The position numbers and the translations under genes were made by a program. Below, piece by piece: positions 4,148 to 12,007 of a DNA stretch of 64,000 nucleotides. The notes beneath the pieces are model-generated. The model made no database searches. It had not been told where the DNA came from and saw only the letters and a list, made by a program, of their open reading frames with translations. This DNA comes from Marinilactibacillus sp. Marseille-P9653 (lineage in GTDB: Bacteria; Bacillota; Bacilli; Lactobacillales; Carnobacteriaceae_A): positions 1,054,001-1,118,000 of the forward strand of contig NZ_CAKAKH010000001.1 of the NCBI RefSeq assembly GCF_916618885.1, read 5' to 3'. Position 1 is the stretch's first letter. Every line of letters begins with the position of its first letter.

Positions 4148-5386
4148 GTGCGCCCGGCATGGGCGACAACTTGGTGGTGAAAGTCCACTACAGGCTTGGC
4201 AGTAGGAACTGTTAGCGAAAGACAAGGGTGTCCGCCGTGAGGCGGAATCTGAAGGAAGTCGGACGCAAATGCTCGCACTGACGAACAGAAACTTCATATC
4301 AAGGCTGAATCAGGACGGACGAGCTTGCTAAACAAAGTAAAGTCTAATACTGCACGAATCCTGTACAGTAAATGAAGCAGTGACATGAGCGGAAGGTTGT
4401 CGTTCTTACCCGGGGAGGTCTGTCTAGCGACCGTTCGGTCGTAGTAACAACGAATAGGCAGAAGTCAGCCGAGGTCATAGTAGGGAAAATGTACTGAAGG
4501 ACCAAACAATATCAAATACAAAGTATAGATTGGAGGTTAGAAGGGACGTTTACTGCAGAAAACAACCGAATGGTTGGCAATCTACAGAGGGATAAGGTGG
4601 AACCGAAAGAGTATGTAGATGTGTAGAGTACCCTTCTCAGCAATGTTTACTTACATGAACTGGACAAAGAACTAGACCGTCGTGGTCATCGATTTGTTCG
4701 TTACGCGGATGACTTCGTCATCTATGTGAAATCTAAACGAGCAGGTGAACGTGTGATACAAAGTGTGACACAATTCATCGAGAAAGATTTGAAACTAATC
4801 GTTAACAAAGATAAGAGTAAAGTCGGGTCTCCTACTCGTTTAAAGTTCTTGAGCTGTCTGATAAGGAAAGTGAATGGAACCTGTCGTTTTATCCCTACAA
4901 AATCAGCCAAACAGAAATTTAAACGAACACTCAAACGACTAACGAGTCGTAAACGTTCCGGAACCTTTGAAGTTATTATAAAGGAAATCAATCAAGTGAC
5001 TCGAGGGTGGATTGGCTATTTTGGTCTTGGATTTATCAAAATGTTCATAAAACGGATAGAACAATGGTTACAACATAGAATCAGACAGCTGATACTCAAA
5101 AGATGGAAGAAAAGCAAAACGAAAATAACGAAGTTATTCAGCTATGGATTGGATATGGATAGTGCTAGAAGAATCGGATTTTCCCGCAAGAAGTACTGGA
5201 GGCTATCCATGACGCCTGAAGTTCATCAGGCACTTACAACGAAAAGACTCCACCATTGGGGCTTAGTCTCTTTAAGCTCCTTGGTAGAGTCAGCTTACGC
5301 AAGGTATTGAACCGCCGTGTACGGAACCGTACGCACGGTGGTGTGAGAGGACGGTAAATCAATTAATGATTTACCTCCTACTCGAT
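4148..5386 (+). mobile_element. Group II intron, internally deleted
   Basis: The 5' end is GTGCGCCCGGCATGGGCG, the canonical GUGCG start of bacterial group II introns. Domains I-III fill about 4148-4500. The 3' part has a domain V hairpin (CCGCCGTGTACGG, AACC loop, CGTACGCACGG, near 5312-5340) and a domain VI stem (GGTAAATCA paired with TGATTTACC), ending in CTCGAT with the required AY. The length is only 1.24 kb; intact relatives of this kind are about 1.8-2 kb because they hold a full reverse transcriptase. The insertion is right behind a terminator U-run and 12 bases before the -35 box of the lysine riboswitch promoter, so neither neighbour is broken. The exact 3' end is my estimate. Confidence 0.88.
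4501..5310 (+). pseudogene. Remnant of group II intron-encoded reverse transcriptase/maturase
   Basis: An N-terminal piece, DWRLEGTFTAENNRMVG onward to EYVDV, ends at an in-frame TAG (4624-4626). In the same frame the protein resumes as TLLSNVYLHELDKEL, then RYADDFVIY (the RT catalytic YADD) and the maturase/thumb region with GWIGYF, ending at 5310. Motifs RT0 to RT4, roughly 200 residues, are missing, so the gene suffered an in-frame internal deletion with a stop at the junction. No HNH endonuclease domain is seen at the C-terminus. A protein could start inside the downstream part (ATG 4726), but it would lack YADD, so reverse transcription is not expected. The intron could at most move with a maturase supplied in trans. 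Confidence 0.85.
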
Positions 5387-5427: not shown

Positions 5428-5445
5428 AATAATCGTTGAAATTAA

Positions 5446-5617
5446 ATAGAGATAGAGGCGCGAAGAAAATCAGTATGATTCAGTAGGGTGACTCCCATTG
5501 ATCGAATCAGAAAGGGTTCTTTGCCGAAGTGGATAGAGATAGTCAATCTCTTTTTGCTGGAGTTCCGCTTAAAAAGCGGATCACTGTCACGATGTTTTCG
5601 TGGAGCACTATCAGGCT
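5446..5617 (+). promoter_or_regulatory. Lysine riboswitch (L box) aptamer
   Basis: The conserved L-box blocks occur in order: AGATAGAGGCGCG (P1/P2 start), an AGTA element, GAAAGGGTTCTTTGCCGAAGTG, TTTTTGCTGG, then a CACTGTCACGA...TCGTGGAGCACTATC closing part. They match the layout I recall for the Bacillus lysC leader (AGATAGAGGTGCG, GCCGAAGC, TTGCTGG, CTTGGAGGGCTATC). Lysine binding should favour the downstream terminator and so shut off the NhaC-family transporter when lysine is plentiful. The 3' arm of P1 overlaps the start of the terminator stem, giving the usual mutual exclusion. Confidence 0.93.
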
Positions 5618-5670
5618 AATTGCGAATTGTAAAGCATTTAGGGTGATCGTGCCTTGAGTGCTATTTTTTT
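5604..5670 (+). terminator. Expression-platform terminator of the lysine riboswitch
   Basis: AGCACT (5604-5609) and GGC pair with GCC and AGTGCT (5651-5662), followed by A and seven T. An alternative pairing of GATCAC (about 5579-5584) with GTGATC (about 5643-5648) would prevent it, offering a read-through state. Confidence 0.8.
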
Positions 5671-5747: not shown

Positions 5748-7463
5748 ATGAAAAAGAAAGTAACATGGAGTTTGATACTCACAACCCTCTTTTTGTTTTT
5801 ACCTCAAACGGTACATGCAGAAGAAGTGCAATCAAGTTTAGCCAATTCGATAGGCTGGATGACGTTGATTCCACCAGTGATTGCAATCATACTTGCGTTT
5901 GTAACTAAGAATGTTGTTTTGTCATTATTTGTAGGAATTTTTTCTGGAACAATTATTATGCAATTCTACAATGATACCAATATTTTAATGGCGATTTTTA
6001 ACGGCTTTATGGATATTGTGGATTATATTCTGAATTCACTAGCAGATCCTTGGAATGCTGGGATTATTTTACAAGTTATGACGATTGGTGGACTAATCGC
6101 CTTGATCACCAGTATGGGTGGTGCACAGGCGGTAGCGGAGAGTCTGGCAAAGAAAGCCAAAGGCCCAATCAGCGCGCAGATGATCACATGGGCACTAGGG
6201 ATTTTGATTTTCTTTGATGATTACGCAAATGCGCTGATTGTTGGACCAATCATGAGACCAGTATCTGATAAAATGAACATTTCAAGAGAAAGGCTCGCTT
6301 TTGTTATTGATGCTACTGCTGCTCCAATAGCTGGAATTGTACTTGTTTCGACTTGGATAGGGTATGAAGTTGGTCTGATCAATGATGCCTATCAGTCTAT
6401 TGGTCAAGAAGTGAATGCATACGGCATATTTCTTCAAACGATTCCTTACCGTTTCTACAATATTTTAATGCTACTTTTCGTGTTCGTGACCTCTCTAACA
6501 CTTAGAGAATTCGGTCCAATGAAAAAAGCACAAGAAAGAGCCAGAGACACGGGGTTACTTGTAGATGAAGCTTCTGAAATCGAAACAGGAGATGAAGAAC
6601 AAGAAGTTTTAGATAAAGAAAAAGCGTCAATCTGGAATGCACTGATCCCAATTGGAAGTCTGATTGTTTTTAGTTTCCTAGGATTCTACTTGAATGGTCG
6701 TTCAGAAATTCTTAGTGGAGACAATAATATACTTGCGCAAACCATTACAAACTCTCCACTTTCTTTTGAAACGATCAGAGAAACATTCGGAGCTTCTGAT
6801 GCGTCCATTGTACTGTTTCAGGCAGCCTTGATCTCAAGTATTATTGCTTTAGTTATGGGTGTTTCACAAGATTTATTCAATTTCAGTAAAGGGATTGAAA
6901 TTTGGGTAAATGGGATGAAGACATTGATGATTACGGGCGTTGTTTTGTTACTTGCTTGGTCATTATCAAGTGTTATGAACGAATTGGGAACAGCTGATTA
7001 CCTTGTTTCTTTATTAGGCGATACGCTGCCGCCTGTTTTACTGCCTTCAGTGATCTTCATTTTAGGTGCAATCATATCGTTTTCAACAGGAACTTCTTAT
7101 GGAACAATGGGTATCCTGATGCCACTTGCTATACCACTAGCAACGGCCTTACAACCTGGAAATCCAGACTTCGTCATCATGTCTGCAGGTGCTGTATTAA
7201 CGGGGGCGATATTTGGAGATCATAGTTCACCAATCTCTGATACAACGATTTTGTCTTCTATGGGTGCAGGATCTAACTTGATCGATCACGTGAAGACGCA
7301 ATTACCTTATGCACTAGCAGTTGGGATAATTTCAATCGTGTTTGGATACCTTCCATCCGCAATGGGACTGAACATTTGGATCATACTACCGATTACTTTT
7401 GTCGCAACAATCGCAATGGTATTCATTCTTGGTAGGAAAGTGGATACAACAGAGCGGAGTTAA
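5748..7463 (+). CDS. NhaC-family transporter, probable lysine transporter (LysW type)
   Basis: This 571-residue polytopic membrane protein of the Na+/H+ antiporter NhaC superfamily has a cleavable-looking signal (MKKKVTWSLILTTLFLFL, QTVHAEE) before the first core helix. Family motifs include FFDDYANALIVGP near residue 160 and FSTGTSYGTMGILMPLAIPLA near residue 445. The start follows GGAGACTGAAGACTA. NhaC homologues under L-box control are predicted lysine importers, which fits here better than a pure sodium antiporter; transport itself is not shown. A loop of charged residues (EIETGDEEQEV) lies mid-protein. The gene is monocistronic, with its own terminator. Confidence 0.85.
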   Translation: MKKKVTWSLILTTLFLFLPQTVHAEEVQSSLANSIGWMTLIPPVIAIILAFVTKNVVLSLFVGIFSGTIIMQFYNDTNILMAIFNGFMDIVDYILNSLADPWNAGIILQVMTIGGLIALITSMGGAQAVAESLAKKAKGPISAQMITWALGILIFFDDYANALIVGPIMRPVSDKMNISRERLAFVIDATAAPIAGIVLVSTWIGYEVGLINDAYQSIGQEVNAYGIFLQTIPYRFYNILMLLFVFVTSLTLREFGPMKKAQERARDTGLLVDEASEIETGDEEQEVLDKEKASIWNALIPIGSLIVFSFLGFYLNGRSEILSGDNNILAQTITNSPLSFETIRETFGASDASIVLFQAALISSIIALVMGVSQDLFNFSKGIEIWVNGMKTLMITGVVLLLAWSLSSVMNELGTADYLVSLLGDTLPPVLLPSVIFILGAIISFSTGTSYGTMGILMPLAIPLATALQPGNPDFVIMSAGAVLTGAIFGDHSSPISDTTILSSMGAGSNLIDHVKTQLPYALAVGIISIVFGYLPSAMGLNIWIILPITFVATIAMVFILGRKVDTTERS

Positions 7464-8911: not shown

Positions 8912-9814
8912 TTATTCTGAAGTATCTTCTGTATTCCCTAAAGCGAAGGTTAACAAGAAACATCCGATTCCTAAAACAACGGTTAGTAGATAATACCAGA
9001 TAGATCTACCCGATTGTAAGTCTGGAATTGCGCTCGTATTTGTTAAAATCGCGATTGGAGAAGCAACGACTAACCCTAAAATACTCGCATACGTATAGGT
9101 TGGTTTCGTTTTGAAAAAGTAATCAATCGCTTTACTGATCAAAATAATACCAATCAACATTCCTAAGGCATATGTACCTAATAGAATCCCGAATGGAATC
9201 AAAGTAATCATATCAAATGAAGAGAGAGCTCCAGTGAACTGATTGATTGTATAAATCACCGCATAGTAGTAACCAAGGATCAGCATCAGCAAAGATCCAC
9301 TTACGCCAGGGATAACCATGGCAGCCGCTGAAACGACGCCTACTAAAAAGAGTGCAAGCAAGTGATTGAAAGTCAGGGAAATTGTTTGTCCAGTTGCACC
9401 GCCAGTTTCAGCAAAGGCCATCCATGCAACGATTCCGAAAAAGATTAAGAAGAAAAGAAGATGGAGGAAATTCATCGATTGTTTTTCCTGGACCATACTT
9501 TTCTGGAAAGATCTCCATAAAATCGGTAAACCACCAAGAATCAGACCAATAAACGCGACTGCTGTAGCAAGAGTGTATTTTACGAGTAGCAATTCAATGA
9601 AATAGGAAAAACCTGATATTCCAAGGATAGCTCCAATAATCAGTGGACCAATGATTCGTGCACTTTTTTTGAACTCGCTTTTTAAATGCGTTACGGCATG
9701 TATAACATCGTCATATATCCCAAAAGAAACGGCCATTGTACCACCTGAAACGCCTGGTATCACATTTGTGATCCCAATAATCATACCTTTAATTATCATC
9801 CATAAGTATTGCAT
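8912..9814 (-). CDS. popT: DUF368 undecaprenyl-phosphate translocase (PopT type)
   Basis: This 300-residue membrane protein begins with the family signature GMIIGITNVIPGVSGGTMAVSFGIYD and repeats it in the second half as VSAAAMVIPGVSGSLLMLILGYYY, the inverted-repeat glycine/proline loops of DUF368. DUF368 proteins (PopT) recycle undecaprenyl phosphate across the membrane for cell wall synthesis, complementing DedA-type UptA. About nine membrane segments are visible. The symbol is by family only. It is transcribed alone toward a shared terminator. Confidence 0.85.
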   Translation of the reverse strand: MQYLWMIIKGMIIGITNVIPGVSGGTMAVSFGIYDDVIHAVTHLKSEFKKSARIIGPLIIGAILGISGFSYFIELLLVKYTLATAVAFIGLILGGLPILWRSFQKSMVQEKQSMNFLHLLFFLIFFGIVAWMAFAETGGATGQTISLTFNHLLALFLVGVVSAAAMVIPGVSGSLLMLILGYYYAVIYTINQFTGALSSFDMITLIPFGILLGTYALGMLIGIILISKAIDYFFKTKPTYTYASILGLVVASPIAILTNTSAIPDLQSGRSIWYYLLTVVLGIGCFLLTFALGNTEDTSE

Positions 9815-9921: not shown

Positions 9922-9959
9922 AGACGATAGGATCTCTGGCTTAAGAAATCCTATCGTCT
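9922..9959 (-). terminator. Hairpin at the end of the ClC gene
   Basis: AGACGATAGGAT and ATCCTATCGTCT form a perfect 12-bp stem that overlaps the ClC stop codon. On the minus strand it is followed by TTTCATT, a weak T-run. Confidence 0.75.
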
Positions 9960-11496
9960 AATTGTGTTTGAGTAAATAGTTTCTAAGACTAGGAACCAAG
10001 CCGCTATCGCACTGGATAATCAGTTCGTCATTAGCTTGAAGTACCGTATCTTCTCTTGGAGTAAAGGTTTCTTTGTATCTAACAATTTCAACGAGTTGTG
10101 CGTGTTCCGGTAAATCTAGATCCTTATAAACTAATCCATCAAAAAATTGATCGGCTCCTACAATTAAGGTTACATCCACTTCTTCACCATTTGGTTTCGA
10201 TTCTAGTTGTTTTGTAGCATTTTCCATTAAGCGTTCGTATAAAGATTTTGAGCCTAAAAAGTTTGCTACGACATACGTACAAAGACAAACCAAGCTCAAA
10301 GGCATCAATTGACTTTCAGTTCCAGTGATTTCAGCAATCAAGATAATTGATGTCAAAGGTGCTTTGATCACGGCAGTCATCAGACCACCCGTTGCGTACA
10401 TAATAAAGTTTTTGTAATAAATCGCGTCGATACTAGAATGATCCAAGGCAAGATTGCCATAAATAGCGCCCATTAAGGCACCTAGACAGAGAACTGGAAA
10501 AAAGATTCCTCCTGGCAGTTCAGAAGAATAAGAGATCAGGGAAAAGATGAAACGGAATAAAAAGATTCCTATCAATAATAAAGTTGACAAACGATTCATG
10601 TCGATAATATCTATGATATCTGTTCCGCCCCCAAGCATGGTCGGCAAATATAAACCAACTTGGATAACAAGTGAAAACGGGATTAGGGCATGATAATGAG
10701 AAGGAAAGGGTAACTTGCTATATAAAGTGGGTAAATGAATCAGAAACTCTTGATAGATTCTACCGACAATAGCTAATGCACTTCCTAAAATGACTAAGTG
10801 TAAATACTGCTCGACCGGGAATCGAATGGCCGTCCCAAGACTTATAGCAGGTTCGATTCCAAAAATACGCAGTGCAACAAAGTTTGCAACAATAGAAGAT
10901 GTAAAAGCCGATAAAAGTAACGTGCCGGAAAACTTATGGTGTACATCTTCAAGGATGAACATCACTCCTGAAAGGGGTGCATTGAAGGCAGCTGATAAAC
11001 CTGCACTTACACCTGAAGAAATTAAAATATTTTCCTGCGAACGATTTCCTTTGAAAAAGCGGTTAATGCCTTTACCAATGACAGCACCTAGATGAACAGA
11101 GGGACCGCCGCGACCTAATGCAAGTCCAGATCCAATCGATAAACTAGCACCTATCAATTTTCTCCAAAAAATAGAAAACCAGTTTATATCACTGATACCG
11201 TAAAGTTGGCTTTCGAGGTTACGGATACCAGCTCCCTTGATATCTGGTTCATCACGCATGAGTCTAGCGATAATTAGTGCTACAACTAAGGAAAAGAGGA
11301 TCCAAGCAACAATCCAGGTGGGGTTTAATCGCATAAAATCATAGGCATCTCGCGTATAGGTTACTAAGAGGCCAATCGTAAAACGAAATAAACTAACAAA
11401 AATACCCACGACCGTGCCCACGGCTACACCTTTGGCAACGAAGGAGATTTTGTTTAAGTCAAAAGATGGATGAATTTTCTTAAAAAGCTCCTTCAA
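9958..11496 (-). CDS. ClC-family chloride channel/transporter with TrkA-C domain
   Basis: This 512-residue protein has a ClC membrane core (about residues 20-420) and a C-terminal TrkA-C regulatory domain (about 435-512, ending in ELIIQCDSGLVPSL). The selectivity motifs are present in altered form: GAGIRN in place of GSGIP and GRGGPSVHLGA in place of GREGP. The codons at 11100-11115 read Gly-Arg-Gly-Gly-Pro, so the external gating glutamate is a glycine. The internal proton-glutamate region reads FILEDVHHKF, with Asp at the second acidic position. Loss of the gate suggests a channel or a non-proton-coupled transporter. The frame starts at TTG 11496 with no clear ribosome site upstream, so the N-terminus is uncertain. 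Confidence 0.85.
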   Translation of the reverse strand: MKELFKKIHPSFDLNKISFVAKGVAVGTVVGIFVSLFRFTIGLLVTYTRDAYDFMRLNPTWIVAWILFSLVVALIIARLMRDEPDIKGAGIRNLESQLYGISDINWFSIFWRKLIGASLSIGSGLALGRGGPSVHLGAVIGKGINRFFKGNRSQENILISSGVSAGLSAAFNAPLSGVMFILEDVHHKFSGTLLLSAFTSSIVANFVALRIFGIEPAISLGTAIRFPVEQYLHLVILGSALAIVGRIYQEFLIHLPTLYSKLPFPSHYHALIPFSLVIQVGLYLPTMLGGGTDIIDIIDMNRLSTLLLIGIFLFRFIFSLISYSSELPGGIFFPVLCLGALMGAIYGNLALDHSSIDAIYYKNFIMYATGGLMTAVIKAPLTSIILIAEITGTESQLMPLSLVCLCTYVVANFLGSKSLYERLMENATKQLESKPNGEEVDVTLIVGADQFFDGLVYKDLDLPEHAQLVEIVRYKETFTPREDTVLQANDELIIQCDSGLVPSLRNYLLKHN

Positions 11497-11497
11497 A

Positions 11498-11521
11498 TAA
11501 TATAGGTACTAATATAGGTAC
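11498..11521. repeat. 12-bp perfect tandem repeat upstream of the ClC gene
   Basis: TAATATAGGTAC occurs twice head to tail directly before the ClC start codon, with a partial third unit (TATAG). It could be an operator or a slippage tract that alters spacing in the leader. Confidence 0.8.
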
Positions 11522-11725
11522 TATAGAAGATACTGAATTTAACCTTGAATATCAAGTTATTCATTTTACAAGAATGAACAAAGCAAGGTAAAGAAAATAC
11601 ACTGGTAAAAGCTAGACTGAATTTTATTAGAATAAAAGAATGTGGTATGATAGTATAGATGGAACATTTTACCTAAAAGCTGCTGTTAGATAATATAAAA
11701 TGACAATTTAAGAGGTGAAGGACAA

Positions 11726-12007
11726 ATGAAGTTGATGGGAATCGAACTGACCATTCTGATTTATGATGCTTACTCTCTTAAAGATAAACGGAGTGTCATT
11801 AAAAGTATATTGAAAAAGGTATCCAATCAGTTTAATGTAAGTGTAGCAGAAATGGATGAATTAGATACGCAAAACAGAGCGGTCATTGGGGTTGGAATCG
11901 TAGGCAATAGTAGTGTGCTTTGTGAAAAAATTCTGAACCAAGTTATACAGTATATAGAAGCTAACTACGAAGTGGAAATCACAGATATTGATCGATTTGT
12001 TTACTAG
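11726..12007 (+). CDS. ylxP: YlxP-family protein (DUF503)
   Basis: This 93-residue DUF503 protein has the typical start MGIELTILIYDAYSLKDKRSVIKSILKKV and the conserved VSVAEMDELDTQNRAVIGVGIVGN. In Bacillus ylxP sits beside infB/rbfA/truB in the nusA operon; here it stands alone, before a hypothetical gene and degV. It is suspected to act with ribosome maturation factors but has no firm function. The ATG follows AGAGGTGAAGGACAA. A possible -10 box TATGAT lies near 11646. Confidence 0.9.
   Translation: MKLMGIELTILIYDAYSLKDKRSVIKSILKKVSNQFNVSVAEMDELDTQNRAVIGVGIVGNSSVLCEKILNQVIQYIEANYEVEITDIDRFVY

Follow-up and report, generated by a model that had tools for sequence, protein, structure and literature searches.

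Glycine in place of the gating glutamate in a CLC protein of Marinilactibacillus, a probable proton-uncoupled chloride conductor

The CLC gene (clc) of the window, the whole stretch of 64,000 nucleotides from Marinilactibacillus sp. Marseille-P9653 that was analysed here, probably encodes the descendant of an RCK-tailed H+/Cl- exchanger that became a H+-uncoupled passive Cl- conductor, in which the changes of the gate Glu to Gly and of the central-site serine (SerC) to Ala predate the split between the window species and M. kalidii, and whose start codon has decayed in the window strain. In the proposed mechanism, the ancestor would have been an ordinary exchanger, and loss of the external Glu side chain, both gate and proton carrier, would have left the outer end of the pore unclosable by Glu and made proton transfer impossible. 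The retained GGIF motif, inner-gate Tyr and CLC fold would then allow passive Cl- conduction. In the window strain, replacement of ATG by AAG behind an intact ribosome site would have lowered translation or newly abolished it.

The conversion of exchangers into channels is an open question in the CLC family. The genus of the window and its sister hold Glu, Gly, Gln and Arg forms, as well as gene losses, at one conserved place, a natural prokaryotic series that amounts to an evolutionary experiment open to protein-by-protein reconstitution. Searches of the openly accessible literature turned up neither a natural GRGGP CLC nor a natural prokaryotic Gly form.

Table 1. Coordinates of the CLC locus in the window and of related loci in other genomes
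Feature	Position	Strand	Remark
popT-like gene (VCA0040 family)	8912..9814	minus	downstream neighbour, marker of the conserved locus
Inverted repeat over clc stop codon	9922..9959	minus	possible terminator between clc and popT; by eye
CLC open frame	9958..11496	minus	512 codons from TTG; no second CLC gene found in this genome
TrkA_C (RCK-type) domain, C-terminal	9973..10125	minus	residues 458-508; profile match; coordinates from residue numbers
Tyr420	10237..10239	minus	inner-gate tyrosine (ec1 Y445), retained; alignment
Asp184, codon GAT	10945..10947	minus	internal glutamate column (ec1 E203); Glu in M. kalidii; alignment
Gly130, codon GGC	11107..11109	minus	gating glutamate column (ec1 E148); alignment with ec1
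Ala89, codon GCT	11230..11232	minus	central-site serine column (ec1 S107); common to M. kalidii; alignment
AAG codon	11479..11481	minus	opposite M. kalidii ATG start
AAGGAG	11488..11493	minus	Shine-Dalgarno sequence, common to M. kalidii
TTG	11494-11496	minus	start in the original prediction; directly upstream of AAGGAG
12-bp tandem repeat	11498..11523	minus	2.2 copies, lying upstream of AAGGAG; absent in M. kalidii
p93 (93-aa protein)	11726..12007	plus	divergent upstream neighbour, marker of the conserved locus
p93-popT interval without clc	L120 between 4856 and 5209		
p93-popT interval without clc	L121 between 8300 and 8663		
p93-popT interval without clc	L122 between 6736 and 7042		
g3 paralogue copies	L035 6723-8261; L036 9753-11306; L037 6970-8502; L038 7223-8782		
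g3 paralogue copies	L039 6414-7946; L040 3014-4561; L042 5257-6789; L047 6915-8450		

Gate, pore residues and predicted fold

The window protein matches the Pfam family Voltage_CLC (PF00654) over positions 3-345 of 346 (E 2e-80, 271 bits, above the curated cut-off) and stays below the NCBIfam threshold for the ClcA equivalog (267 vs 350 bits). Its AlphaFold model (mean pLDDT 89.8) has a predicted CLC fold, all 50 PDB matches listed being CLC-ec1, the first with a TMt of 0.89. CLC-ec1 (E. coli ClcA, a H+/Cl- exchanger) shares with the window protein this predicted fold (about 28% identity at a Foldseek E of about 1e-22), GGIF, the inner Tyr and the E202 column, but the window protein has Gly at the gate, Ala at SerC, Asp at the internal glutamate in this strain and an extra TrkA_C tail.

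The original prediction that Gly replaces the gating glutamate is confirmed by the alignment, in which GRGGP (residues 128-132) lies opposite GREGP of the E. coli CLC structures, and by the same Gly in M. kalidii. The external glutamate of GREGP that marks a H+/Cl- exchanger of the ClcA type is therefore absent, and the gating Glu is missing as it is in passive CLC channels such as CLC-K. The ED read in place of EE at the inner proton site is also real, but this Asp, which can ionise, is conservative and strain-specific; M. kalidii keeps EE, so the Asp falls outside what the two species share. Phe332 aligns with ec1 F357, and the ec1 F348 column holds Tyr, as it does in 80 of 97 Glu-bearing relatives. 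Residue 326 of the window protein (ec1 G351 column), shortly before GGIF, is Glu, against Gly in M. kalidii and Gly, Ser, Asn or Gln in the other rows.

Published ec1 mutants suggest that the window and M. kalidii proteins would pass Cl- passively. According to the accessible portion of PMC3519907, a nonprotonatable residue at E148 ends H+ transport in ec1 and leaves uncoupled Cl- movement, which by analogy backs H+-uncoupled Cl- movement, and so part of the original proposal of a passive channel or an anion carrier with other coupling. E148A alone is slow (260 vs 1440 per second in a D417C background at 0% cross-link; PMC4769167, in part), and the authors of PMC6019066, in the extract available, reason that an inner kinetic barrier persists in this mutant. 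The inner constriction is formed by S107 and Y445 (PMC7253180, in part). The same extract of PMC6019066 gives S107G a doubled Cl- rate with 3-fold lower H+ coupling, and makes S107G/F348A/E148A about 25 times faster than E148A. The window and M. kalidii proteins join the lost outer gate with Ser to Ala at SerC and are perhaps channel-like conductors, but a fast channel would be an extrapolation, since the literature reports Gly and not Ala at this serine, and the fast mutant is also changed at F348 (Tyr here).

Several known proteins resemble this arrangement. The ec1 mutants E148A, S107A/E148Q/Y445A (2ez0), E148A/Y445A (3det) and S107G/F348A/E148A have lost the outer gate and in some cases SerC too, but they are laboratory-made, whereas the window protein is natural, has Gly at the gate and retains the inner Tyr. 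Vertebrate CLC-K channels lost the gating Glu naturally (Val166; parts of PMC6019066 and PMC5362633), but are distant (E about 1e-9), carry Val and not Gly, need barttin and have SerC present but flipped down. For CLC-0/1/2, exchanger and channel are described as hardly distinguishable from sequence (PMC6019066, in part). Lactobacillus reuteri has four COG0038 genes, of which two carry both glutamates; the authors, in the available section, group antiporters and channels separately and state that channels lose the internal glutamate (PMC6909576).

A fluoride carrier reading is unsupported, as there is no fluoride riboswitch among the five Rfam matches of the window, and the protein reads GAGIR and GRGGPS where the GNNL and GREGT motifs would be. 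These motifs mark a group of distant CLCs that we take to be CLC-F (fluoride exporters), GNNL occurring in 6/16 and GREGT in 5/16 of the further CLC rows.

Conservation, selection and start codon

M. kalidii, the closest named relative, has a single CLC match in its genome, 78% identical to the window protein (78.5% amino-acid identity) and with Gly at the gate. The orthologues in sister genus g3 (copy 1) are RCK-tailed, 50-56% identical and located in the same place between p93 and popT, but the nine intact genes aligned all retain GREGP, SerC and the internal Glu. Gate codons are GGC in the window and GGT in M. kalidii vs GAA or GAG in these nine genes, so that at least two steps separate them. 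Because M. kalidii shares the Gly through another codon, in a frame still intact at saturated synonymous divergence, a sequencing error and a lone or recent mutation are ruled out. Conservation of Gly among homologues, which the original prediction had proposed to examine, holds for the window species and M. kalidii but not for a third species of the genus (G002), which has Arg, nor for g3, which has Glu. A tenth g3 copy 1 (L040 4560-6167, in G013), part of a tandem pair, is broken by TAG just behind the gate motif.

Between the window species and M. kalidii, clc has a pN of 0.130, a pS of 0.717 and a dN/dS of 0.061, which is rough because dS is saturated, vs 0.025-0.156 for eight neighbour genes. 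The substitutions at gate and central site are thus shared by two species between which the Gly form is under purifying selection, and they are accompanied by a burst of change. On a tree fixed by the eight neighbour genes, some of which were not found in every genome, the rate of clc relative to these neighbours is 4.46 on the window-kalidii stem and 2.55 on G002, vs 0.20-1.73 on the remaining 19 of 21 branches, which include the tips of the window (1.14) and M. kalidii (1.00). Of the eight g3 tip rates listed, six (0.27-0.78) are lower than those of both Gly tips and two (1.32 and 1.44) are higher, so constraint on the Gly form may be somewhat relaxed. The high stem rate and ordinary tip rates point to a burst after which constraint returned, though perhaps a little less tightly. 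Among 265 sites invariant in nine g3 genes, 62 are changed in both species.

The strongest competitor of the uncoupled conductor, which we regard as unlikely, is an eroding gene: the exchanger would have become dispensable in the genus, its gate residues changing while loss was under way, and the window copy may be silenced. The gene was found in three of five genomes of the genus (window, M. kalidii and G002), and is missing between adjacent p93 and popT in G001 and G003 and in the sister-genus genome G020. The G002 protein has SRRGP at the gate (Arg codon AGA), carries G146S and lacks the RCK tail. Absence from two of the five genomes, the tail-less G002 protein and the lost start in the window are the counterpoint to an uncoupled conductor and fit erosion too, as do the raised rates on the stem and G002. 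Against erosion stand the purifying selection between the two Gly species and the nearly equal numbers of private changes at the 265 sites (13 in the window alone, 11 in M. kalidii alone). The 507 codons compared between them hold no stop, whereas in simulations with substitutions only, 0.05 neutral changes per site introduced stops in 97% of 200 runs. Any decay of the window copy is thereby limited to a few substitutions per hundred sites.

In the start region, M. kalidii reads AAGGAG-CATTTC-ATG and the window AAGGAG-CTTTTT-AAG, with no ATG, GTG or TTG at proper spacing behind the window AAGGAG and, close behind it, ATT at codon 8 as the only unusual start candidate. The TTG start that had been thought odd is indeed the first ATG, GTG or TTG after a stop in the clc frame, but it has no recognisable ribosome site and is doubtful as a start, given that the M. 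kalidii ATG sits behind AAGGAG. The 12-bp repeat noted directly before it also exists, but is not an oddity of a working start. With ATG changed to AAG behind an intact ribosome site, the window strain probably translates clc less, relying on ATT or TTG, or has newly ceased to do so. Expression in this strain is thus doubtful and may be weak or recently silenced. The inverted repeat over the stop codon was picked up by eye, its 14-base loop exceeding the range of 3-8 in the scan, which did not report this repeat.

A less probable alternative still is that H+ coupling was kept, or another anion is preferred, by means of a different titratable group: the His in the ec1 Q153 column could shuttle protons. 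This column, five residues on from that of the lost Glu in helix F, holds His in the window and M. kalidii proteins vs Gln in all 97 Glu-bearing proteins compared, and Ala at the central-site serine could shift anion choice, but we know of no substitute titratable group for ec1 E148. The end of H+ transport in ec1 with a nonprotonatable E148 (PMC3519907, in part) also speaks against this. That the protein is a non-conducting regulatory or partner subunit of another CLC is very improbable, for although tandem CLC pairs occur in g3, neither the window genome nor that of M. kalidii yielded a second CLC gene.

The tandem partner in g3 is a paralogue that adjoins copy 1 in six of eight genomes. All eight copies retain GREGP, but Asn replaces SerC, Leu replaces F357 and Asp replaces the inner-gate Tyr. 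Judged from these residues, the paralogue is a further case of a naturally remodelled pore.

Loss of the gating glutamate across the order

A DNA pattern for GRGGP matched 5/395 sampled genomes of the order, in 3/80 genera: G000, G004 (of the window's genus), G292, G058 and G147. A pattern for codons with a non-A second base matched 6/395, the sixth match not being a CLC. In the sample of the class, GRGGP or GSGGP matched 3/398 genomes, and only the window's match was a CLC. G002 was missed by these patterns because they require flanking residues. Matches opened and rejected as decoys were GRIGP in G028, G049 and G222, located in a permease-like protein that is presumably OppB, GRIGP in G217, without a CLC match, GRTGP in G003, inside a 23-residue frame, and GSGGP in G515 (a 44-residue frame) and G621 (a 77-residue frame).

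Among 104 CLC proteins compared, 97 have Glu at the gate and seven do not, which is no frequency since rows were selected (39 of the 97 were picked from GREGP matches and 26 via a motif pattern search). On their tree, the fewest changes are five for the gate residue and four for presence or absence of Glu, and the gating Glu was lost in at least four lineages. The GRGGP proteins of family f5 (G292, G058 and G147) and the GRQGP protein of G010 resemble the window protein in lacking the external Glu and occupy separate tree positions, but the f5 proteins are shorter (440-477 codons) and retain SerC. That of G147 (L073 579-1898, 440 codons open) further differs in having Gly at the internal Glu and Cys at the inner Tyr.

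The E203 column holds Glu in 97/97 Glu-bearing rows and lacks it in 2/7 Glu-less rows (Fisher 0.004, kinship ignored). Sixteen further CLCs all keep the gate Glu, but the second internal Glu, read by eye, is missing from 14, which makes the internal Glu the more easily lost one in this group. In one relative outside the set of 104 (L185, 35% identical), the gate Glu is present and the internal Glu absent, and the two losses are thus not tied.

Laboratory work to make ec1 channel-like has altered SerC, I356 and the inner Tyr. Under a broad rule, drawn up after the rows were inspected, these three positions are changed in 6/7 Glu-less vs 11/97 Glu-bearing proteins (Fisher 5e-5), eight of the 11 belonging to one paralogue group; without counting Met, the figures are 4/7 vs 10/97 (Fisher 0.006). 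A fragment row without the motif (L137) was left out, and its inclusion gives 7/8. Among the Glu-less proteins, SerC has become Ala in the window and M. kalidii, I356 has become Gly in G010, and the inner Tyr has become Cys in G147; Met in place of I356, in G292 and G058, is a weaker case. Four kinship-independent pairs gave averages of 2.0 in the same direction, 0.1 opposite and 1.9 without difference, and once kinship is counted in this way the association is not significant. The recurrence of second-site pore changes beside gate loss hints at convergent channel evolution. It is a tentative possibility that exchangers of this order became gateless Cl- channels several times, each with a second pore-residue change, which if true would be a natural repeat of laboratory engineering.

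Elsewhere in the window, a lysine riboswitch (Rfam, 5445-5618) lies ahead of a gene of the Na_H_antiporter family (5748-7463), the product of which may therefore be a lysine transporter. Parts of a group II intron (Rfam) lie at 4231-5386, and the 194-codon open frame inside them (4726-5310) is perhaps a shortened intron protein.
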